A stretch of DNA of 64,000 bases from Candidatus Faecalibacterium faecigallinarum (lineage in GTDB: Bacteria > Bacillota > Clostridia > Oscillospirales > Ruminococcaceae), in contig DWWN01000060.1 of assembly GCA_019119685.1 (NCBI GenBank), positions 1-64,000 on the forward strand, read 5' to 3'. Positions 50,412 through 63,094 of the stretch are shown one piece after another. The position numbers and the translations under genes are program-made. Under the pieces are notes generated by a model. The model searched no databases. It worked only from the letters and a program-made list of their open reading frames with translations, and was not told the origin of the DNA. Numbering within the stretch: position 1 is the first letter of the stretch; every line of letters starts with the position of its first letter.

Positions 50412-51893
50412 TTATTCCAGGTTGATCTCTTTGGCGTATTCTTCCAGCAGCTCGCGCTCGAGGAAGGGGGTCTTGACCCCCATGCGGTCCCGGTAGGTCT
50501 CGTGGCCCTTGCCGATGACGGCAATCAGGTCGCCGGGCTGGGCGTGGTCCACCGCGTAGTGCAGCGCGTCCAGCCGGTCGGGGATCTCGACGAACTTGGC
50601 ATCGGGGTTGCCTTTCAGCATCCCCTGCCGGATGTCGGCCAGGATGTCCTCCACCTTTTCAAAGCGGTTGTTGTCCTCGGTCAGGATGGAGAAGTCCGCC
50701 ATTTTGGCGCAGATCTCCCCCATGCCGTACCGGCGCAGCTTGGAGCGGTTGCCCCCGCAGCCGAACACCACCACCAGACGGTGGGGGTGGTAGGCCCGCA
50801 GGGTGGTCAGCAGGCTCTCGGTGGACACTTCGTTGTGGGCGTAGTCCAACAGGATGGTGAATTTTTTGCTGATGGGCACCAGCTCCACCCGGCCCTTGAC
50901 CACGCAGCGGCCCAGGCCGTCGTGGATGGCGCTGTCGGGCAGGCCCAGTTCCCGGCCCACCGCCAGGGCGGCCAGCGCGTTGTAGACGCTGAACTCGCCC
51001 GGCATATTCACCTTGACGTCCATCTCATCCTTGCCGCTGACGTGGAAGGCCACGCCCAGAAAGTCGTGGTCCCGCAGCAGGCGGCAGTCCGAAGCGCGGT
51101 AATCGGCCTGCTGGTGCATCCCGTAGGTCACCAGGCGGCAGGTGTGGCCTTCCAGCAGGGCCTCGGTGTTGGGGTCGTCCGCATTGACGATGCCCAGGCT
51201 GCACCGCTGGAACAGCTGGCCCTTCCAGCTGCGGTATTCCTCAAAGCTGGCGTGCTCGCCGGGGCCGATGTGGTCGGGAGAAAGATTGGTGAACACCCCC
51301 ACGTCGTAGTGGATGCCCCCCACCCGGTCCATCATCAGGCCCTGGCTGGACACTTCCATCACCACCGTGTCACACCCGGCGTCCACAAAGGTGCGGAAGA
51401 TCTTCTGCAGCTCGTAGCTCTCGGGGGTGGTGTTGGCGGTGTCCTCGTGGCGGCCCATGTAGTACACGCCGTTGGTGCCGATCATGCCCACCTTGTGCCC
51501 GGCGGCTTCCAGCACGCTGCGGATCATGTGGGCGGTGGTGGTCTTGCCCTTGGTGCCGGTGACGCCGATCATGGTCATCTGGCGGGAAGGGTTGCCGAAC
51601 AGGTTGGCGCTCATCAGGGCCATGGCATGGCGGCTGCTGGCCACCTTGAGGACCGTGACCCCTTCCAGCCCGGTCAGGTCGATGTCGTGCTGGATGACCA
51701 GGGCCGCCGCCCCTTTGGCGGCGCAGTCGGCCGCAAAGTCGTGGCTGTCCCGCTGGGTGCCCACGATGCAGACGAACAGCACCCCCGGGGCGGCCTTGCG
51801 GCTGTCGTAAATGACATCGGTGATCTCGGTGTCCATGCTGCCCTGTACCAGGGTGCAGTCCACCCCCTGCGTCAACGCGGATAACTTCATCAT
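50412..51893 (-). CDS. murE: UDP-MurNAc-tripeptide ligase (MurE)
   Basis: GVTGTKGKTTTAHMIRSVL, TTPESYELQKIF, FGCGGNRSKLRRYGMGEI...TEDNNRFEKVEDILADI, IGKGHETYR. Confidence 0.94.
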   Translation of the reverse strand: MMKLSALTQGVDCTLVQGSMDTEITDVIYDSRKAAPGVLFVCIVGTQRDSHDFAADCAAKGAAALVIQHDIDLTGLEGVTVLKVASSRHAMALMSANLFGNPSRQMTMIGVTGTKGKTTTAHMIRSVLEAAGHKVGMIGTNGVYYMGRHEDTANTTPESYELQKIFRTFVDAGCDTVVMEVSSQGLMMDRVGGIHYDVGVFTNLSPDHIGPGEHASFEEYRSWKGQLFQRCSLGIVNADDPNTEALLEGHTCRLVTYGMHQQADYRASDCRLLRDHDFLGVAFHVSGKDEMDVKVNMPGEFSVYNALAALAVGRELGLPDSAIHDGLGRCVVKGRVELVPISKKFTILLDYAHNEVSTESLLTTLRAYHPHRLVVVFGCGGNRSKLRRYGMGEICAKMADFSILTEDNNRFEKVEDILADIRQGMLKGNPDAKFVEIPDRLDALHYAVDHAQPGDLIAVIGKGHETYRDRMGVKTPFLERELLEEYAKEINLE

Positions 51894-53308
51894 TCTTCCT
51901 CCTGTTGTGTCCCGGCGGGCTGCGTCTCCTGGCCGGCTGCGTCGTCCGCACCGGCCTCCCCGCCGTCCTCCGGGCCTTCTGCCGGGACGCCGTCCGTCCC
52001 GGGCTGCTCCTCTGCCGCACCGGTCTCACCGGCGGGCAGTTCCGTCCCGGTCGTGTCCTCCTCCGGGACGACGTAGCCCGAAGGCAGGGTCGGGCTGCCC
52101 TGTGCAAAGATCGCCTGCAGGCTGCCGTCGGTGCGCAGGTGGCTGCAGTCCAGCCGGCCGGTGTCGGTGGGGGCGCAGCCCTTGCCCTCCTTGTTCAGCA
52201 GCATATATTCGGCGTAGTCCAGTTTATAATCCAGCTCGTTCAGGGTGCCCAGCAGCACGCTGATGCGGTCCTGATACAAAAAGGCCAGCTGTTCCACGTC
52301 GGCAAATTCCACCCGCGTCACATCCGCCATCAGGTCCCGCTGTTCCAGGGCATCCAGCAGCGTCTGCAGCGCCTGGATGCGGCTGTCCGTCTGGGGCTCC
52401 GCCGCCTGCTGGCTGGACGCCGCAGTGCTTCCGGCGCTGTCCGCCGTCTCGGGCGGGACATAGGACAGCTGGTCGCCGGGGGTCGTGCTGACCGGGTCCC
52501 CGCCGTAGAGGACGGGCAGGTCGGGCTGTTCCGTCTCGGCCGAGAGGATCTTGAGGTCCGCCGACAGGCTGATCCAGCCGCCGGGGGACGGCATGGTGTA
52601 AACGGGGGTGGCGGGCGTCACCCGGACCACCACCGTGCTGGGGTAGATCCGCTCCACCGAGATGTGTTCCAGCAGGGGGAACGCCTTTTCCAGCGCCGCG
52701 GCCTTGGCGGCTGGGTCAAAGCTGAAAATGTTTTCTTCCAGCTGGACCCCGAGGGCGTCCAAAATTTCGCTGCTGGTATAGGGGCTGGACTGATCCAGCG
52801 CAGCGCCGGACGCCGTCTGCACCTGGATGGCGTTGATCTTGAACAGCATGGTCATGGTCAGATAGACGCCGGCGGCGGCCACGCAGAGCACCAGGGCTAT
52901 GGCGGTCAGCCGGCGCAGCATCCGGCGGCGGCGCAGCATCTTGCGGGTGACTTTGCGCCGGCGGCGCACTTCCCTGCGCTGCACGGTCTGGGCCGGACGC
53001 TGCCGGACCGGCCGTGCCTGCTGAGGGCGGCCGGACGCCGCCGGGCGGGGCCTCTGCCCCGAAGGCCGCTGGTTCGCCGGACGGGCCGATGGCCGGGCCT
53101 GCCCGGTGGGGAACTGGACTGTATTGTCCCGGTAGCCGCCCCCCACATGGTAGGACGGGGCCGGGTTCTCTACGTCGTAGAGTGCAGGCCGGCGGCCGCC
53201 GCTCACCTCCAGCGGAGGGCGGGACGGCCGGCTTTGGGCAGGGCGCCTCGCCTGCCCTGCCGCGGGGCGGACGGGCTGCCCAGTCCGCTTTCGCTTTTTA
53301 GCGGGCAT
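51890..53308 (-). CDS. ftsQ: FtsQ/DivIB-type POTRA division protein with long basic N-terminus
   Basis: R/P/Q-rich N-terminus, one TM (LTAIALVLCVAAAGVYLTMTMLF), POTRA-like INAIQVQ...YTSSEILDALGVQLEENIFSFD...LEHISVERIYPSTVVVRVTPATP. Lies between murG and murE. Confidence 0.85.
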   Translation of the reverse strand: MPAKKRKRTGQPVRPAAGQARRPAQSRPSRPPLEVSGGRRPALYDVENPAPSYHVGGGYRDNTVQFPTGQARPSARPANQRPSGQRPRPAASGRPQQARPVRQRPAQTVQRREVRRRRKVTRKMLRRRRMLRRLTAIALVLCVAAAGVYLTMTMLFKINAIQVQTASGAALDQSSPYTSSEILDALGVQLEENIFSFDPAAKAAALEKAFPLLEHISVERIYPSTVVVRVTPATPVYTMPSPGGWISLSADLKILSAETEQPDLPVLYGGDPVSTTPGDQLSYVPPETADSAGSTAASSQQAAEPQTDSRIQALQTLLDALEQRDLMADVTRVEFADVEQLAFLYQDRISVLLGTLNELDYKLDYAEYMLLNKEGKGCAPTDTGRLDCSHLRTDGSLQAIFAQGSPTLPSGYVVPEEDTTGTELPAGETGAAEEQPGTDGVPAEGPEDGGEAGADDAAGQETQPAGTQQEEE

Positions 53309-53336
53309 ACCGCGCCGCCTCCTTTCTATGATGTGC

Positions 53337-54464
53337 TTACGGCGTGCGCACGAGGGCGCGCAGGCGGGACGTGATCTGGTCCAGACTGTCGTCCACCGAG
53401 AGGGTGCGGGCATTGCGGCCCATCCGGGCCAGCTTGCCGTCCTCGTCCAGCAGGGTCTTGACCTCGGCCACCAGCTTTTCGCCGGTGAGGTCCTTTTCCT
53501 CAATGACCACGGCGGCGTCCACCTTGGCCAGCTCGAGGGCGTTGTAATACTGGTGGTTCTCGGCCACGTTGGGGCTGGGGATCAGGATGGCCGCCCGGCC
53601 GGCGGCTTCCAGCTCGGCCAGGGTGAGCGCGCCCGCCCGGCTGATGACCAGGTCGGCCGCCGACAAAAGTTCGGGCATATTGTCGATGTATTCCCGCACC
53701 ACCAGGCTGTCCCCGCGGGCAAAGCCCTTCTGCTTTTCCAGGTCCTGGAACAGCTGCACCCCGTACTGGCCGGTGGCGTGCAGATGGAGGATGTTCCGCT
53801 TTTCCTTCTGCTCCCAGGCGCACAGGCCGGCCACCACCTCGTTGATGCGGCGGGCCCCCAGGCTGCCCCCGAAGGAGAGGATGACGGTCCGGTCCCCGGC
53901 GTTCAGTCTGGCGCGGGCCTCATCCCGGCGGCGGGCCCAGTCGAACACCTCAGGGCGGACGGGGTTGCCCACCACCACGGTCTTGTCGGGGGCTCCCAGC
54001 CGGTCGGCCCCGGCCTGGACCGCCGCAAACACCAGGTCCACCTCGGGGGCCAGCAGCTTGTTGGTCACGCCGGGAAAAGCGTTCTGTTCATGGATGGCCG
54101 TCTTGATGCCCCGCTTGGCCGCCGCGCGGACCACCGGTCCCGAGACATAGCCCCCGCACCCGATGACCAGGTCGGGGTCCACCTCATTGAGGATGGCCTT
54201 GCACCTCGGCCCCGAGCGGGCCAGGTTCCAGATCGTGACGGCGTTGCGCCGCAGGTTTTCCAGCGAGGGCCGCCGCTGGAAGCCGGTCACTTCGATGTGG
54301 TGGAAGGGGTATCCCGCCTGGGTGACCAGACGGTACTCCATCCCCTCTTTGCGGCCGGCAAAGTGGATCTCGGCGGCGGGGTCGGCCGCACGCAGCGCCC
54401 CCGCGATGGCGAGGGCCGGGTTGATATGGCCGGCCGTGCCGCCGGCAGCGATCAATACGCGCAT
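53337..54464 (-). CDS. murG: Undecaprenyldiphospho-MurNAc-pentapeptide GlcNAc transferase
   Basis: MRVLIAAGGTAGHINPALAIAGAL; LSFGGSLGARRINEVV; SRAGALTLAELEAAGRAAILIPSPNVAENHQ. Confidence 0.97.
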   Translation of the reverse strand: MRVLIAAGGTAGHINPALAIAGALRAADPAAEIHFAGRKEGMEYRLVTQAGYPFHHIEVTGFQRRPSLENLRRNAVTIWNLARSGPRCKAILNEVDPDLVIGCGGYVSGPVVRAAAKRGIKTAIHEQNAFPGVTNKLLAPEVDLVFAAVQAGADRLGAPDKTVVVGNPVRPEVFDWARRRDEARARLNAGDRTVILSFGGSLGARRINEVVAGLCAWEQKEKRNILHLHATGQYGVQLFQDLEKQKGFARGDSLVVREYIDNMPELLSAADLVISRAGALTLAELEAAGRAAILIPSPNVAENHQYYNALELAKVDAAVVIEEKDLTGEKLVAEVKTLLDEDGKLARMGRNARTLSVDDSLDQITSRLRALVRTP

Positions 54465-54561
54465 GATTGATTCCTCCTGTCCGGGTGTGCCGGACCGCGC
54501 AAAAAATCCCGTCCGTCTTGGTTTACAGGCGGGATATAAGCTGTTTTGCTGTACGCCCCGT

Positions 54562-55881
54562 TCAGTTCAAACCTCCGGCGCGGCGGCTGCCGGGCCGGCG
54601 GATGCCGTCCAGAGTGATGGGCGGGCGGGACGCCTGCCGGGCCTTTTCCTCCTGGGCTTCGCGCGCGGCGCGGCGGATCGCCGACACCTTCGCGCCGTTG
54701 CGCCCGATGTGGATCATGACGCCCATCTCGGCCATGAGCAGCAGCAGACTGGTGCCGCCCGAGGAGAAGAAGGGCAGGCTGATGCCGGTGTTGGGCAGGG
54801 TGTTGGTGACGACGGCCACGTTGCAGAACACCTGCCAGCCCACCTGGGCCATGATGCCCACGCCCACCAGGGTGCTGAAGCGGTCCCCCGCCTGGAAGGC
54901 GATCATGAACCCCTGCACCAGCAGCAGCACGAACAGCAGGATGACCACCACGGCCCCCACAAAGCCCAGCTCCTCACAGACGACGCTGAAGATAAAGTCG
55001 TTGGTGCACTCGGGCAGCCAGAGCTGCTTTTCCACGCTGTTGCCCAGGCCCAGGCCGGTCAGCCCGCCCGAGCCGATGGCGTACAGGCTCTGCAGGGTCT
55101 GGTCGGTCATCTTGCTCATGTCGCTGGTCCAGCCGTCCAGTCGGTCCTGCAGGTAGGGGATGGAGTCGATGTGGGACAGCAGCGTCTCCAGCAGAAACAC
55201 CGCGCTGACCGCGCCGCCGTAGGTGATGATGCCGCCGCTGCCGTTCAGCAGCAGGATGCTGCCCACGATGGCGCACATCAGCACGATGCCCGACATATGG
55301 GGCTCCAGCACCAGCAAAAGCACCACCGGCACCAGCGGCAGCAGGGGGATGGCCAGTTCCCGGACGAGCTTCTGGTACAGCCACCCGCCCGCTCCCAGAT
55401 GGGCGCCGCCCTCCCGCGGGATGGGACGGCGGGTGCGGCTGGCCAAGTGGGCGGTGAGCAGGATCATTTCAAACTTGACCAGCTCCGACACCTGCAGGGT
55501 GGGCAGGCCGCGGATGTTCAGCCAGCGGCGGCAGCCGTTGAGCGGCTCGCAGAACAGCACCGCCACCAGCAGCACCAGGCTGACGAGGTAGCCCGCCCAC
55601 ACGAACTTGCGGATGAACCGCAGGTCAAAATACGAAAACAGGAACATCACCCCTACCCCGATCAGGGCGTAAAGGGCCTGCGACTTGATGTAGTGAAAGC
55701 TGTCCCCCATGCGGAGATAGCCGGTGGTATAGCTGGCGCTGAACAGCATCACCAGCCCGAATATGACGATCAGCGCCAAAGTGGCCAGCCAGCTGATGAG
55801 CAGCGGGGTCCAGGGGCCGGGGTCGCGCTGAAGGATCACCACCGGCCCGCCGGGGTCGGCGCGGCGTCTTGCTATCGCCAT
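54562..55881 (-). CDS. ftsW: FtsW/RodA/SpoVE family SEDS protein
   Basis: VMLFSASYTTGYLRMGDSFHYIKSQALYALIGV...WLNIRGLPTLQVSELVKFEMILLTAH...NVAVVTNTLPNTGISLPFFSSGGTSLLLLM. Confidence 0.95.
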   Translation of the reverse strand: MAIARRRADPGGPVVILQRDPGPWTPLLISWLATLALIVIFGLVMLFSASYTTGYLRMGDSFHYIKSQALYALIGVGVMFLFSYFDLRFIRKFVWAGYLVSLVLLVAVLFCEPLNGCRRWLNIRGLPTLQVSELVKFEMILLTAHLASRTRRPIPREGGAHLGAGGWLYQKLVRELAIPLLPLVPVVLLLVLEPHMSGIVLMCAIVGSILLLNGSGGIITYGGAVSAVFLLETLLSHIDSIPYLQDRLDGWTSDMSKMTDQTLQSLYAIGSGGLTGLGLGNSVEKQLWLPECTNDFIFSVVCEELGFVGAVVVILLFVLLLVQGFMIAFQAGDRFSTLVGVGIMAQVGWQVFCNVAVVTNTLPNTGISLPFFSSGGTSLLLLMAEMGVMIHIGRNGAKVSAIRRAAREAQEEKARQASRPPITLDGIRRPGSRRAGGLN

Positions 55882-55893
55882 AACAGCACCTCC

Positions 55894-56916
55894 TTACAGC
55901 TGCGCGGTGCGCAGAGCAGCCAGCACGCCGGCCAGCGCCAGCGCACAGAAAACGTAAAAAGCCGATACCGGGCCGCCCTTTTTGCGCAGCCAGGCATCCA
56001 GGCTGCCGGCCTTGAACAGGGGCCGGCCCCGGAACCGCCGCCAGACGCCCTGCAGCAGGGCGGCCAGCCCCTCGGCCCAGAAGGGCAGCCCCAGCACCAG
56101 GGCCAGGTCGCCCCGGCCAATGGACAGGGGGATGCCCCCCACCGCCCCCGCCAGGAACAGGCAGCCCACCGCGCCGGGCAGCAGCCGGGCGGGGTAAAAA
56201 TTCCACAGCAGAAAGGCCATCAGCGCCCCGGCCAGCGCCGCCGGCAGCACCGCCAGCGGGAAAAAGCCCAGGATCGTCTCGGCCCCCATCAGGCCCAGCA
56301 TGGCCACAAAGGCCGCGCCGGCCGCAGCCCCGTCGGCAGAGCCCGCCAGCCGGACCGATTCGGCCAGGGCCAGCAGCATCGCCGCCCAGAGGGGCGCGGC
56401 TGCGGCTCCCAGCTCGCAGTAGCCCAGGATGGGCAGGGTCAGGCCGGTGGGCATACAGCCGCCCAGCCAGAGGGCCCCCACCGTCACGGCGGCGGCCAGA
56501 GCCTCCAAAGCCAGGCGGACGCCTGTGCGCAGGCCCAGCACCTGCCGGGGCCGCAGCCGGGCCAGATCGTCGGCCAGGCCCGCCGCCCCCAGCAGGAAGC
56601 CGCCGCCCAGCCCCAGCATCAACCGGCCGGTCAGCCCGCCGCCCAGCAGCTCGGGCTGGATCATGCAGACCACCGCCCAGCCCACGCCCACCGCGGCCAG
56701 CGTCCCGATGATGAAGCACAGGCCGCCCATGGTGGGCAGGCCGCGGGGCGCAGGCGGCTCGGGGGGCTGTTCTTCCGGCTGGCCGGGCTTTGGGGCGGGG
56801 CCGTTCTCCTTTTCAGGCGGGACAAGGGCCCGCAGCAGGGGGACCAGTAAGTTCCCGACCGCGGCGGTCAGCGCAAAACCCAGCACCGACGCCACGATCA
56901 AGGCAAAACGTATCAT
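55894..56916 (-). CDS. MraY-family (PNPT superfamily) membrane protein with degenerate active site
   Basis: PRGLPTMGGLCFI and GLADDLARLRPRQVLGLRTG align to MraY. The NLTDGLDG, FMGDTGS and HHH motifs are lost. Confidence 0.8.
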   Translation of the reverse strand: MIRFALIVASVLGFALTAAVGNLLVPLLRALVPPEKENGPAPKPGQPEEQPPEPPAPRGLPTMGGLCFIIGTLAAVGVGWAVVCMIQPELLGGGLTGRLMLGLGGGFLLGAAGLADDLARLRPRQVLGLRTGVRLALEALAAAVTVGALWLGGCMPTGLTLPILGYCELGAAAAPLWAAMLLALAESVRLAGSADGAAAGAAFVAMLGLMGAETILGFFPLAVLPAALAGALMAFLLWNFYPARLLPGAVGCLFLAGAVGGIPLSIGRGDLALVLGLPFWAEGLAALLQGVWRRFRGRPLFKAGSLDAWLRKKGGPVSAFYVFCALALAGVLAALRTAQL

Positions 56917-56934
56917 GTGTGTACACTCCGAATG

Positions 56935-58341
56935 TTATGAATTTTCGCTGTTTTCAGCGGCGATGGCCTCGGCGTCCTTCAAAGCCTGCAGCTGCTGCAC
57001 GGCGTTTTCCAGCGCCATGGCCCGGCTGCCCTTGAACAGGACGGCGTCCCCCGGGACGGTGATCTTTGCCAGGAAGCCGGCGATCTCCTCGTAGCTGTGG
57101 GCGTGGATGGTGCGCACCCCCTTGGCCGCAGCCACCGTCGCGGTGCGGTGGGCCAGTTCGCCGTAGGTGATCAGGCAGTCGATGCCGCTCTGGGCCACCA
57201 GACGGCCCAGCTCCTCGTGCTCGGTGCGGGCCTCGTCCCCCAGCTCCAGCATATCCGCCAGGACGGCGAACCGCCGCTTGCAGGGGTAATCCTTGAACAT
57301 TTCCAGCGCCGCCCGCATACTGGTGGGGTTGGCGTTGTAGCAGTCCTCGATGATCCGCACCCCGTGGCAGTCCAGCATATGCTGGCGCATCCCGGTCTGC
57401 CGGAACTCCTTCATCTGCTGGATGGCCTCCTTGGGGGTCAGGCCCAGCTGGCTGGCGGCGCAGTAGGCCGCCAGGGCGTTGGCCACGTTGTGGCGGCCCA
57501 GCGCCGGGATGTGCACCATGAAGCAGCCGTTCTCGGCGTCGTCCAGCAAAAAGCTCATGCCGTCGTTCTCCTGCCGGATGGCGGAGGCGTACACATCGGC
57601 CTCCTGGCTGATCATGCTGTACCAGACGGGGCGGACGTGGGCGGGCAGCTCGGCCTTGCGCAGGAAAGGGTCGTCGTAGTTCAAAACGAGGGGCGCGCCC
57701 TCGGGCATCCCGTCGCAGATCTCGAGCTTGGCCTTGCAGATATTCTCCTGGCTGCCCAGGTTGCCGATGTGGGACAGGCCGATGCAGGTGATGACGCCCA
57801 CGTCCGGCCTGGCGCAGCGGGACAGCCGGCTGATCTCGCCGGCGTGGTTCATGCCCATCTCGATGACGGCGTACTGCGTCCCGGCGCCGATCTGGAACAG
57901 GGTGCGGGGCAGGCCCAGCTCGTTGTTCTGGTTGCCCTCGGTCTTGATGGTGGCGCCCAGGGCGCTGAGGGCCGTGGCGCAGAACTCCTTAGTGGTGGTC
58001 TTGCCCACGCTGCCGGTCACGCCCACCACTTTGGGGGCAAACTGGGCCCGGTAGTTGGCCCCCATCTGCATCATGGCCTGGTAGCTGTCCGGGCAGAGGA
58101 TGGTCTTTTCCTCGGGCACGCCCTCCACCGGGTGGTTGAGCACCACCCATTCCGCGCCTGCCGCCAGGGCTTTGGCGGCAAAGTCGTGCCCGTCAAAGTG
58201 TTCGCCGGGGAAAGCTACAAACACGCACCCGGGCCCGGCCTCCCGGCTGTCGGTGGTCACCAGCGAGACGGTCTGCTCCGCGTTGATGCGTTCGGCGGGC
58301 GTCAGCCCCGCCAGAAGGGTTCTTGCTGCGATTTTTTCCAT
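56935..58341 (-). CDS. murF: UDP-MurNAc-tripeptide--D-Ala-D-Ala ligase
   Basis: VTTDSREAGPGCVFVAFPGEHFDGHDFAAKAL, VGVTGSVGKTTTKEFCATAL, ALGRHNVANALAAYCAA, DCYNANPTSMRAAL. Confidence 0.97.
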   Translation of the reverse strand: MEKIAARTLLAGLTPAERINAEQTVSLVTTDSREAGPGCVFVAFPGEHFDGHDFAAKALAAGAEWVVLNHPVEGVPEEKTILCPDSYQAMMQMGANYRAQFAPKVVGVTGSVGKTTTKEFCATALSALGATIKTEGNQNNELGLPRTLFQIGAGTQYAVIEMGMNHAGEISRLSRCARPDVGVITCIGLSHIGNLGSQENICKAKLEICDGMPEGAPLVLNYDDPFLRKAELPAHVRPVWYSMISQEADVYASAIRQENDGMSFLLDDAENGCFMVHIPALGRHNVANALAAYCAASQLGLTPKEAIQQMKEFRQTGMRQHMLDCHGVRIIEDCYNANPTSMRAALEMFKDYPCKRRFAVLADMLELGDEARTEHEELGRLVAQSGIDCLITYGELAHRTATVAAAKGVRTIHAHSYEEIAGFLAKITVPGDAVLFKGSRAMALENAVQQLQALKDAEAIAAENSENS

Positions 58342-58450
58342 TCGTTCCTATCCCCTTTCCATATGTTTCCAAAATGGTCTGTCCTTATTATAAATGGTAC
58401 GCTGCGGGCAAGGCAAGTAGAGCTCTGCGGTTTTCGCCCATCCTTCACTT

Positions 58451-60943
58451 TTACCCGCAGGTAATGGTCACGATGGTGCCAAGCTGGACCCGGTCGCCGG
58501 GGGCGGCGCTCTGGCTCTGGACCAGGCCGGCGGCGCTGCCCTCCACGATGCAGTTGAAGCCTGCCGCGTGCAGCATCTGGCTGGCAAAGTCGGCGCTCTT
58601 GCCGGTCAGGTCGGGCACCTCGGCGGTCTGGCCGCTGTAGGTGTCGGTGTAAAGATAGATGGTGGTGCCGCTGGGCACCTCGGTGCCCGCCGTGGGGTAC
58701 TGCCAGGTGACGGGGGCGGCGGTGTTGCCGCTCTCGCTTTCCACCAGATGGTGGGCCAGGCCGCGGATGTTCAGGTTGACCTGGGCGTTTCTCCACTCGG
58801 TGCCGATCAGGTTGGGCACCTTGACGGTCTGGCCGCTGCGGTCCACGCCGTCGGTGGCGATGCCCAGATACGGCGCGATCTCGCTGATGATGTTGCCCAC
58901 CACCGGCGCGGCCAGCACCGAGGAATAGTCGCTGTTGGCGTTGTTGGGGTCGTCCAGCATGACGTAGACCAGGATCTGGGGGTCGTCGGCGGGCAGCACC
59001 GCCACGAAGGAGGCCGCCTTTTTGTAGTCGCCGTCGGCGCGGCGGTCCATGTTCAGCAGCTCGGAAGTGCCCGATTTGCCGCCGATGCGGTAGCCCGCCA
59101 CATAGGCGCGGTAGCCGCCGCTGCGGGTGGTGCCGTCGCCCACCTCATGCTCCATGATCTGGCGGATGGTCTGGCTGGCGCTGCCGCTGATGACCTGGCG
59201 GCGGACGTTCGGGCCGATCTGCTCCACCACGTTGCCGTTGGCGTCCACGATCTGATCCACCACATGGGGGGTGACGAGGTAGCCGCCGTTGACCGCGGCC
59301 GACACCGCCGTGCACACCTGCAGGGGCGTCACCGCCATGGACTGGCCGAAGGCCGAGGAGGCCAGCTCCACCTCGCCCATGGTCTGGTCGGTGTAGTACT
59401 GCATATAGCCCGTCTCGTTGGGCAGGTCCACGCCGGTGCGCTCGGTGAAGCCGAACGCCTTGAAGTAATCGTAGAATGTATCGACGCCGATCCGCTGGCC
59501 CAGCTGGATGAGGTAGATGTTGCAGCTGTTCAGCAGGGCGTCGGCCAGGTTCTGGGTGCCGTGGCTGTGGCGTCCGGCGCAGTGGTAGGTCTGCTTGGCG
59601 ACGGCATAGGCGCCGCTGCAGTTGAAAGTCGTGTTGTAGGTGGCGTTGCCCGAGTCCACACCCATGGCGGCGGTGATGACCTTAAAGACGCTGCCGGGGT
59701 AGTACAGCTCGGTGATGTTCTTGTTTTTCCACATGATGTCCCGGAAGTAGCCCGAGTAGTCGGCTTCGGGGTCCAGGATCCTGTTCCCGTTCTCGTCGGT
59801 GACGAAGGTGCCGTCCTCGTTTTTCAGGTAGATGCCGTAGAGTTCCGGCTCGGCCCGGACCAGCTCCTCCAGATAGGCCTGGTTGGCGGTGTAATTATTG
59901 GGGTCATTGGGGTCGAAGTCGGGCTTGGAGGCCATGGCCAGGATGCCGCCGGTGTTCACGTCCATCACGATGGCGCAGCCGCGGTTTTCCACCGTGTTGG
60001 CGGCGATGGCCTCGTTCAGGTACTTTTCCACCACTTCCTGGATGGTGGTGTCCAGCGTCAGGACCAGGCTGTCGCCGTCCTTGGCGTCGTAGGTGACGGC
60101 GCTGCTGTCGGCGATGGCGTTGCCCCGGGCGTTGCGGATGGTGACGGTCCGGCCGTCGGTGCCGGACAGAATGTCATCGTAGGATTTTTCCAGCCCGTAA
60201 AAGCCGTCCCCGTCCGCATTGGTAAAGCCCAGCACCGACGCCGCAAACGCCCCATAGGGGTAGTTGCGCTGGTAGGTGCGGGAGGAGGAGAGGGACAGCC
60301 GGCCGGTGCCCTTGATGGCGTTGCGGTCGGACACATACTGCTCGATGGACTCCTTGACGGCGTTGTTGACCTTTTCGGCCAGCACCTGGTAAGAGGAGTC
60401 GATCTTGCTCAGGGCCTCGTAGACGGCCTCGTACTGCTGAAGGTAGGCCTGGGAGGTGGTGTCCACCTTGTCCAGACTGACGCCGTCCCCTGACAAAAGG
60501 CGCAGCGTCAGCTCCCGGCTGATCTCGCCGCAGGCCGCGGCGTCCAAGGTGTGGACGGTGGACTCCACTTCCGCGCCGGTGGCGGGGTCGGTGGAGGTGA
60601 TGGTCTGGCTGTCGTAGAGGGCGCTGGAATAGCTGGGATCGCACCAGATATCCCACACCACGCTGGTGGACGCCAGCACCTTGCCGGTGGCGTCGTAGAT
60701 CTCGCCGCGGGTGGCCTGGATGGTGGTGTCCAGCAGCTGCTGGTCGCTGGCATAGCGGCTGTACATCTCGCCGTTGCGGATCTGGATATTGTAAAGGCTG
60801 CCCACCACGATGGCGGTGGCCGCCAGGACTGCGCCGATGGATACCGCCACCCCGATCTTGCGGGTCCTGGCAGGGATGGGGGCCGAGTCGGGGGCGCGGT
60901 AAAGGCCGCCCCCCCGCCGGCGCCGGTTGGTTGCTTCTTTCAT
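58451..60943 (-). CDS. Penicillin-binding protein 2 / SpoVD-like transpeptidase with two PASTA domains
   Basis: YPGSVFKVITAAMG (SxxK), NSCN (SxN), GGKSGTSELL (KSGT), C-terminal PASTA repeats. Confidence 0.95.
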   Translation of the reverse strand: MKEATNRRRRGGGLYRAPDSAPIPARTRKIGVAVSIGAVLAATAIVVGSLYNIQIRNGEMYSRYASDQQLLDTTIQATRGEIYDATGKVLASTSVVWDIWCDPSYSSALYDSQTITSTDPATGAEVESTVHTLDAAACGEISRELTLRLLSGDGVSLDKVDTTSQAYLQQYEAVYEALSKIDSSYQVLAEKVNNAVKESIEQYVSDRNAIKGTGRLSLSSSRTYQRNYPYGAFAASVLGFTNADGDGFYGLEKSYDDILSGTDGRTVTIRNARGNAIADSSAVTYDAKDGDSLVLTLDTTIQEVVEKYLNEAIAANTVENRGCAIVMDVNTGGILAMASKPDFDPNDPNNYTANQAYLEELVRAEPELYGIYLKNEDGTFVTDENGNRILDPEADYSGYFRDIMWKNKNITELYYPGSVFKVITAAMGVDSGNATYNTTFNCSGAYAVAKQTYHCAGRHSHGTQNLADALLNSCNIYLIQLGQRIGVDTFYDYFKAFGFTERTGVDLPNETGYMQYYTDQTMGEVELASSAFGQSMAVTPLQVCTAVSAAVNGGYLVTPHVVDQIVDANGNVVEQIGPNVRRQVISGSASQTIRQIMEHEVGDGTTRSGGYRAYVAGYRIGGKSGTSELLNMDRRADGDYKKAASFVAVLPADDPQILVYVMLDDPNNANSDYSSVLAAPVVGNIISEIAPYLGIATDGVDRSGQTVKVPNLIGTEWRNAQVNLNIRGLAHHLVESESGNTAAPVTWQYPTAGTEVPSGTTIYLYTDTYSGQTAEVPDLTGKSADFASQMLHAAGFNCIVEGSAAGLVQSQSAAPGDRVQLGTIVTITCG

Positions 60944-61039
60944 TCGCTTCTCCTGCCTGACGCCCGCCGCCAAGACGGCACGGGGCGTCAGAAACCGAAA
61001 AAGCGTGCGCAGGCGCACGCTTCCCCGGGTATCGTTGGT

Positions 61040-61561
61040 TTATTCTGCAGCGTCCGCCGGCGGGTCGATGGTCCGCAGCAGGGACGAGACGCCGGCCTGG
61101 AGGGTATCGGTCCACTTTTCCACCGCAGACTCGCGGCGGGTGAGCACGCTCTGGTCGTCCAGCCGGATGTAGGTGATCTGGCTGTCGTCGATCTTCATCA
61201 GGCCCAGGCGGCCGGCCACGTTCTCCACGTTGGAAATGCTGGACTGGACGTTGAGGGTGGTGGTGTAGTAATCGTTCTGGCTCTGGGCCGAGATCAGAGT
61301 CGCCTTTGCCTGGCGGATGTCCCCACTCAGCTCCACGATGCGGGCCTCGCTGAACAGCAGCGCCACCGACAGCCCTGCCAGAAGCCCCAGCGCAAGGATC
61401 TGCACGCCGTGCTGCATCATGGCGCGCAGGGGCGAGATGGCGGCCTTGCCGCCCTGCTCGACCCGCAGGTTGGGCCGCCGCTCGGGCTGGGGCTCCGGGC
61501 GGCGGACTGCCTGTCCTAAAGTGATGCCGTTGTAATTGTAATCGTATGCAGGCTGACCCAT
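61040..61561 (-). CDS. ftsL: FtsL-like septum protein
   Basis: Single TM followed by coiled coil; position between rsmH and the PBP gene. Confidence 0.75.
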   Translation of the reverse strand: MGQPAYDYNYNGITLGQAVRRPEPQPERRPNLRVEQGGKAAISPLRAMMQHGVQILALGLLAGLSVALLFSEARIVELSGDIRQAKATLISAQSQNDYYTTTLNVQSSISNVENVAGRLGLMKIDDSQITYIRLDDQSVLTRRESAVEKWTDTLQAGVSSLLRTIDPPADAAE

Positions 61562-61608
61562 GACTTGTATCTCTCCTCTTTCCGCGCACCCTGTGTGAGG
61601 GGGTGCGC

Positions 61609-62577
61609 TCACAATTTTTCAAGGACCCGCAGACGGGCCGAGCGGCTGCGCCGGTTGTCGGCCAGCTCGCCGGGCTTTGCTTCGATGGGCTTGCGGGTGA
61701 TCAGCTTTGCCTTTGCCTTGCCGCCGCAGACACAGACCGGGAACTCGGGCGGACAGGTGCAGGCGGTGGCCCAGCGGCGGAACTTGTTCTTCACCAGCCT
61801 GTCCTCCAAAGAGTGGAAGGTGATGACGCAGAACCGCCCGCCGGGTCGCAGGGCGCTGAAAATGGCGTCCAGGCCCTCGTCCAGGGCGTCCAGCTCATGG
61901 TTCACCGCGATGCGCAGCGCCTGAAAGCTGCGCCGGGCCGGGTTTTTGTCCTTGCGGCGGACCGCCGGAGGCATGGCCGACGCCACCAGCCCCGCCAGCT
62001 GCAGCGTCGTCTCGACGGGAGCCTCCTGCCGGGCCTCCACGATCTTGCCGGCGACCTGCCAGGCATAGGGCTCCTCGCCGTAATCCCGCAGGATGCGGGC
62101 CAGTTCTTCCCGGTCGAGCGTGTTGACCAGGTCGGCGGCGGTGGTGCCCTCCTGGCTCATCCGCATATCCAGCGGCGCGTCGGCCCGGTAGGAAAAGCCC
62201 CGCTCTGCATCGTCCAGCTGGTGGCTGGAGACGCCCAGGTCCAGCAGCGCTCCGTCGATGGCCTCCACCCCGACCGAGGCCAGGGCGCCGGCCGCATAGC
62301 GGAAATTGGTCTGCACCACAACGGCAGGCAGCCCCGCCAGCCGCTGGCGGGCCGTCTGGACCGCGTCGGGGTCCTGGTCCAAAGCGATGAGCCAGCCGCC
62401 GGCCGCGGCGTCCAGCCGGCTGGCAATGGCCCGGGAATGGCCCGCGCCCCCTGCCGTGCCGTCCAGATAGATACCGCCGGGGCGGATGTTCAGCCCTTCC
62501 AGGCATTCTTCCAGCAGCACAGGTACATGCTCGAAAGAAGCCGGGTCAAATGCCTGCTGGGTTTGTTCGTCGTTCAT
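61609..62577 (-). CDS. rsmH: 16S rRNA m4C1402 methyltransferase RsmH (MraW)
   Basis: HVPVLLEECLEGLNIRPGGIYLDGTAGGAGHSRAI, RGFSYRADAPLDMRMSQEG, FHSLEDRLVKNKFR. Confidence 0.97.
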   Translation of the reverse strand: MNDEQTQQAFDPASFEHVPVLLEECLEGLNIRPGGIYLDGTAGGAGHSRAIASRLDAAAGGWLIALDQDPDAVQTARQRLAGLPAVVVQTNFRYAAGALASVGVEAIDGALLDLGVSSHQLDDAERGFSYRADAPLDMRMSQEGTTAADLVNTLDREELARILRDYGEEPYAWQVAGKIVEARQEAPVETTLQLAGLVASAMPPAVRRKDKNPARRSFQALRIAVNHELDALDEGLDAIFSALRPGGRFCVITFHSLEDRLVKNKFRRWATACTCPPEFPVCVCGGKAKAKLITRKPIEAKPGELADNRRSRSARLRVLEKL

Positions 62578-62609
62578 GGGGCCCGCCTCCTTTCCTGTCG
62601 AAATATGTT

Positions 62610-63029
62610 TCAGATGTGGAGTTCCCGCAGGCGGGCGGCCCGCTGCTCGTTGGTCACGGCGGCCCGGCGGGCATCCCAGCGGGCGGCGTCCCAGATCTCG
62701 GCGTGGTTGCGGTTGCCGATGACGGCCACCGTCTTGCCCAGCCCAGCGTAGGCCCGCAGGCTGGCCGGCAGGAGGATGCGCCCCTGCTTGTCCGGCGTCA
62801 CCTCGCAGGCGGTGCTGAACAAATCGCCGGTGATCTCCCAGCTGTCCATCAGCTCGTCCGCGCCCAGCCGCTCCGAGATGCGTTCCACCTCGGCCATGGG
62901 CAGGGCGAAGAGGCACTGGTCCAGCCACTCCATCACCACAAAGCTCTCGCCCATCCCCTCCCGGAATTTGGCCGGGAAGTTCAGGCGGCCCTTGGCGTCG
63001 ATGGCGCAGTCATACCGTCCAAAGAACAC
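62610..63029 (-). CDS. mraZ: Transcriptional regulator MraZ
   Basis: V(GTG)FFGRYDCAIDAKGRLNFPAKFRE...DKQGRILLPASLRAYAGL. Confidence 0.95.
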   Translation of the reverse strand: MFFGRYDCAIDAKGRLNFPAKFREGMGESFVVMEWLDQCLFALPMAEVERISERLGADELMDSWEITGDLFSTACEVTPDKQGRILLPASLRAYAGLGKTVAVIGNRNHAEIWDAARWDARRAAVTNEQRAARLRELHI

Positions 63030-63064
63030 CCTGACCGCCCCCTTTTGTGGCCCGAGATGGGGTG

Positions 63065-63094
63065 TGCTCCCCACTTCTCCCTACTTTACTCCAC
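63065..63094 (-). promoter_or_regulatory. MraZ operator candidate: three 10-bp direct repeats
   Basis: Minus strand GTGGAGTAAA GTAGGGAGAA GTGGGGAGCA between promoter and mraZ start. Confidence 0.65.

Follow-up and report, generated by a model that had tools for sequence, protein, structure and literature searches.

Background

MraY generally counts as an essential enzyme encoded by one gene copy, and as an antibiotic target. It is the phospho-N-acetylmuramoyl-pentapeptide-transferase represented by the structures 4j72, 5jnq and 8g01, the last of which shows E. coli MraY bound by phage protein E. D117, D118 and D265 of MraY are described as critical for activity, with D265 coordinating Mg (PMC6606608), while W253, F254 and Q260 line the undecaprenyl-phosphate site at the dimer interface (PMC9046198). 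Residue numbering throughout is that of A. aeolicus MraY. As for peptidoglycan synthases of the dcw cluster, SpoVE and SpoVD have been described as synthases used in sporulation (PMC10693644). A literature search covering few subscription journals found no earlier description of bacteria with a second MraY, or an inactive one, of the kind presented here.

The MraY-position protein of the dcw cluster

The window, i.e., the whole stretch of 64,000 nucleotides from Candidatus Faecalibacterium faecigallinarum that was analyzed, carries a dcw cluster in the order mraZ-rsmH-ftsL-PBP-murF-slot-ftsW-murG-ftsQ-murE, where the slot gene (encoding the slot protein) is the MraY-position gene between murF and ftsW. 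In this cluster (50412-63074), ftsW follows the slot gene with no murD in between, and murE comes after ftsQ, not before murF. The features referred to below are the following.

62610-63074, minus strand: mraZ, first gene of the dcw cluster, with rsmH and ftsL next
58451-61018, minus strand: class B PBP (FtsI/SpoVD type)
56935-58341, minus strand: murF, upstream neighbor, 18 bp from the slot gene
55894-56916 (56916-55897 as coding span), minus strand: slot gene, encoding a catalytically degenerate MraY-family protein of 340 aa with an ATG start (family match and alignment)
56722-56736, minus strand: PTMGG entry motif, aa 61-65, kept (alignment)
56566-56571, minus strand: DD pair, aa 116-117, corresponding to D117/D118 of A. 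aeolicus MraY, kept (alignment)
56317-56367, minus strand: loop C, aa 184-200, LAESVRLAGSADGAAAG where NAVNLTDGLDGL is expected; N190 and D193 gone, D196 kept
56161-56205, minus strand: loop D, aa 238-252, WNFYPARLLPGAVGC where FMGDTGS is expected; Mg-binding D265 gone
55969-56028, minus strand: loop E, aa 297-316, GRPLFKAGSLDAWLRKKGGP where the HHH loop is expected
54562-55881, minus strand: ftsW, downstream neighbor, 12 bp from the slot gene
53337-54464, minus strand: murG

The original prediction, made from this stretch alone, was that the protein in the MraY position has lost its catalytic motifs, and the open reading frame, the family scores and the alignment to A. aeolicus MraY confirm it. 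The slot protein scores 55.9 bits against Pfam Glycos_transf_4 (PF00953; gathering cut-off 27), which places it in the PNPT superfamily. Its best NCBIfam family is mraY (TIGR00445), at 65.9 bits versus an equivalog cut-off of 192. PRGLPTMGG and the DD pair within GLADDLARLRPRQVLGL are retained as had been noticed, the segment ahead of PTMGG being a variable Pro-rich linker; D117, D118, D196 and G264 are kept in the alignment. The NLTDGLDG loop, FMGDTGSL including the third Asp, and the HHH loop had been read as replaced. Indeed, ESVRLAGSADGA is found at the NLTDGLDGL position, LLPGAVGCL at the FMGDTGS position and KAGSLDAWLRK at the HHH loop position. The alignment shows the replacements N190>R and D193>G, F262>L and D265>A, H324-326>D/A/W, and also K70>P. 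The DDD motif (D117, D118, D265) is therefore broken by D265>A, and neither the HHH loop nor the NLTDG loop of MraY is recovered. The frame is uninterrupted over its 340 aa and tightly spaced from both neighbors, also as described.

The MraY fold is predicted to persist. An AlphaFold2 model of the window slot protein (pLDDT 80, pTM 0.81) reaches a TM score of 0.80 to 6oyh, and that of a degenerate slot protein from another genus (pLDDT 86, pTM 0.87) a TM score of 0.84 to 8g01. In the genus alignment, the second Asp of the DD pair is invariant, as are W, F, PA, L and two G of loop D. This W.F.PA.L..G..G block aligns with MraY residues 254-267, where slot proteins of other genera also have invariant residues. 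The hint toward the undecaprenyl-phosphate site is weak, since R340, the other key residue of that site, is not kept in slot proteins as read from the alignment; R340 is not general in canonical MraY of the family surveyed here either.

A second, catalytically complete MraY

Exactly two PF00953 genes occur in the source genome: the slot gene and a gene on contig C66, here called MraY2. A second MraY, which the original prediction proposed to look for in canonical form, thus exists as a catalytically complete but divergent protein of 319 aa, with the motifs NCTDGVDG, MGDAGSR and PLHDH. Across an alignment of 56 MraY2 sequences, D117, D118, N190, D193, D196, D265 and H324 are invariant, H325 is Asp in all 56, Arg replaces T75 in 54 of them, and F262 gives way to Leu, Met or Ile. 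T75R, F262L/M and H325D, observed at the MraY2 loci (L001:1255-2211 and others), concern three positions that contact nucleoside inhibitors in canonical MraY.

MraY2 very probably makes lipid I, since it is the only PF00953 gene in genera g48 and g84 and in genome G138 of g38, where murE, murF, murG and ftsW are present. We infer this role rather than assign it, as the score of MraY2 against the NCBIfam mraY model (89.8 bits) is itself below the cut-off of 192. MraY2 is a distinct lineage that Lachnospiraceae have as well, a fact that lay beyond the sight of a single-stretch reading, as did the genus-wide extent of the degenerate state and its recurrence in other genera. In the MraY2 tree, members of the family surveyed here are intermixed with Lachnospiraceae, so that MraY2 has probably spread horizontally. 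An identity as WecA/TagO was considered and rejected: NCBIfam puts mraY first, and MraY2 is the sole PNPT in some walled genera.

Selection and conservation

Codon-based estimates (MG+F3X4, ten close species) yield an omega of 0.133 for the slot gene, compared to 0.091 for MraY2, 0.099 for ftsW and 0.085 for murF, and fixing omega at 1 for the slot gene is 390 lnL units worse. The proposed dN/dS comparison hence returns purifying selection. NG86 medians give the slot gene the same rank (0.24 versus 0.145-0.185); it evolves faster than its neighbors. In six further genera, slot-gene omegas are 0.04-0.29 and omega = 1 is worse by 21-142 lnL, figures that are rough as the sequences are very divergent, some comparisons offered too few rows, and two-sequence cases were run with one row entered twice.

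The active-site loops of MraY2 are its best-conserved parts (0.90-1.00 versus 0.84 for the rest). The slot protein shows the reverse within Faecalibacterium and for the same taxa: its loops A, C and E fall below the rest (0.53, 0.71 and 0.65 versus 0.75), and loop B with the DD pair stays conserved. As to conservation of the degenerate motifs among orthologues, which the original prediction asked about, the loop D block is invariant in the genus alignment, position 265 is A, S, M, C, K or R in Faecalibacterium, and the His loop shows no common replacement. Lost catalytic residues and purifying selection, which together mark a pseudoenzyme, are thus both found here. The original prediction had named two options, a pseudoenzyme that is retained and a relic in a genome whose functional mraY lies elsewhere, and the facts combine the two, with a complete MraY2 elsewhere and a slot omega of about 0.13.

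Low omega together with a relaxed active site argues for retention in a non-catalytic membrane role. We consider it probable that MraY2 took over lipid I synthesis and that the old MraY was kept as a non-catalytic membrane pseudoenzyme. Lipid I synthesis would have moved from the dcw-encoded MraY to the divergent MraY2 elsewhere, and the old MraY would have lost its Mg-binding and other catalytic residues with its ten-helix membrane body remaining under purifying selection. It would then act as a non-catalytic component at the MurF/MurG/FtsW site, its candidate roles being scaffolding, pairing with MraY2 in a heterodimer, and binding of undecaprenyl phosphate or lipid I. On sequence grounds, the takeover by MraY2 and the loss of catalytic residues in the slot protein appear well supported; the inactivity of the slot protein, lipid I synthesis by MraY2 and the non-catalytic role are what we infer from them. 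A wider proposal is tentative and on balance doubtful: MraY would have a non-catalytic function in the cell-wall machinery that normally goes unnoticed since the protein is also an essential enzyme, and for which most lineages kept the old MraY once a second MraY had freed it from catalysis.

The same conservation bears on the idea that a dead MraY serves as a decoy that soaks up MraY-directed phage lysis proteins. The complex with phage protein E (8g01) is among the structure matches, and the membrane body is the conserved part of the slot protein; a decoy would nonetheless be expected to diversify rather than be conserved, and we give this explanation hardly any credence, the least of those considered. 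Replacement of the MurJ flippase by the slot protein is rejected: MurJ/MOP-family matches are present in all 31 genomes searched (30 above the cut-off), so there is no sign of a missing MurJ that the slot protein would replace.

Distribution in Faecalibacterium

MraY2 occurs in 31 out of 31 Faecalibacterium genomes searched, and a slot homologue in 30 of them, including all high-quality ones (22/22). Every aligned Faecalibacterium slot protein lacks both D265 and N190, except that of genome G019, which keeps D265, so the degenerate slot protein is not an error of one genome. In G019, the slot protein is still close to canonical MraY. It retains HLTDGIDG and MGDTGS, with DD changed to ED and HHH to HAE, which makes it, by its sequence, an intermediate stage.

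Besides fragments at contig edges (G009, G018) and a single further genome (G024; L028), slot frames are open, with lengths of at least 332 aa for g1 and 342-384 aa for g40. G024 is a MAG of 79% completeness whose slot gene is split between two reading frames, apparently by a frameshift or through an assembly error. Slow decay of a relic without present function after the MraY2 takeover would account for this apparent frameshift, for the freely varying catalytic motifs, for the faster evolution relative to the neighboring genes and for the gene losses in other lineages described below. Against a relic stand the omega of 0.13 with omega = 1 strongly rejected, the open frames, and the full-length frames in other genera despite great divergence. 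We therefore regard decay as unlikely, and retention of the old MraY as a pseudoenzyme as the preferred reading.

Other genera and lineages

In a survey of 149 genomes of the family, a single canonical dcw MraY is the state of most genera. MraY2 accompanies a degenerate slot protein in sampled genomes of g20, g22, g25, g40, g45, g73, g76, g81 and g84 (with G069 as an exception for MraY2). In these other genera with MraY2, the slot protein is full-length despite great divergence and has lost D265 and N190; no aligned degenerate slot protein has either residue. Note that single-residue calls in the most divergent slot proteins depend on the alignment, D265, G264, N190 and D118 being in better anchored stretches. 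Canonical slot MraY together with MraY2 occurs among sampled genomes of g14, g27 and g44. One genome of g27 (G056; L096) that also has MraY2 carries an otherwise canonical dcw MraY with D265N (FMGNLGS), possibly a conversion at its first step.

All 22 aligned slot proteins of g40 lack D265 and N190 and have D118, D196, G264 and H324 constant, with Glu, Gln or Arg at position 265; in this alignment, D193/G194 are uncertain as they lie beside an insertion, and K70 is not used since its column is out of register, with D or N standing there in canonical proteins. Such constancy, along with the predicted fold and a D118 and G264 that are nearly always kept, would fit a divergent active enzyme that still transfers a phospho-sugar, either through different metal ligands or on a different substrate. 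Against this speak the loss of D265 and N190 in all degenerate copies, the assortment of residues at 265 and in the His loop within Faecalibacterium, and active-site loops that are no longer the best-conserved parts, which makes continued catalysis quite improbable. The canonical Lys-GTPTMGG gives way in g25, g40, g45 and g76 to a new N-terminal segment that is conserved among them, IG-x-R ... D ... P-x-x-GG (L097, L098, L099, L102, L105, L107, L108, L110 and L112); it may mark a new ligand site.

In g38 and g48, the slot gene is deleted and murF is followed directly by ftsW. Outside the family, the old mraY was likewise deleted in five genomes that have MraY2 only (three of Butyrivibrio, that of [Clostridium] fimetarium and one under the label Clostridiaceae), since no MraY-sized ORF lies between the PBP gene and murD, both named from ORF reading; a slot-gene remnant is thus rejected there. 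The slot role is consequently not generally essential. These junctions also bear on the notion that the frame is kept merely as operon filler for translational coupling of murF and ftsW. The gaps of 12 and 18 bp and the conserved murF-slot-ftsW order fit such a notion, but coupling would not preserve amino acids, contrary to the low omega and the predicted persistence of the fold, and g38 and g48 join murF and ftsW directly; we judge it very improbable.

MraY2 was not detected in two g40 genomes with a degenerate slot protein, G069 (99% complete) and G197 (80%). Judged by the slot protein, the genomes closest to them are G209 and G214, both of which have MraY2, so that assembly gaps are the likely cause. 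G093 (g64, 95% complete) yielded no MurG and no PF00953 gene, which may reflect an incomplete assembly or an unusual envelope.

Number of conversions

Mapping the degenerate state onto the MurG+MurF+FtsW+PBP tree takes seven or more changes on starred branches, read here as about six conversions, compared to just two changes on the slot-gene tree. A single origin of all degenerate slot proteins is disfavored by the free slot-gene tree, in which the Faecalibacterium proteins group with canonical g14 and g32 (96*), though one clade of all degenerate proteins is not rejected by the AU test on this tree (p = 0.485), where long branches may attract. A conversion of Faecalibacterium separate from the others appears better supported, given the near-canonical G019 and the position of the group with g14 and g32.

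Comparison with known systems

Here, MraY appears to be naturally divided between two proteins, a dead one encoded in the dcw cluster and an active enzyme encoded elsewhere, so that a structural role of MraY could be tested with lipid I synthesis left intact. If annotators or drug developers took the gene at the dcw position of Faecalibacterium for MraY, they would address the wrong gene, and the differences of MraY2 at three inhibitor-contact positions bear on nucleoside-inhibitor sensitivity as a testable question.

The slot protein resembles MraY (TIGR00445, PF00953) in its murF-ftsW position, ten-helix fold and PTMGG and DD motifs, but differs from it in the loss of D265, N190, D193, F262 and the His cluster and in scoring well short of the family threshold. 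MraY2 of the same genome shares its superfamily and, presumably, the reaction that the slot protein once catalyzed; unlike the slot protein, it has a complete catalytic set and is located outside the dcw cluster, and, unlike canonical MraY, it carries Arg at T75, Leu/Met/Ile at F262 and Asp at H325. SpoVE and SpoVD, the repurposed dcw peptidoglycan synthases of Firmicutes, offer a parallel as products of dcw-position genes without the expected vegetative job; these are synthases put to use in sporulation, whereas the slot protein has lost its catalytic residues.
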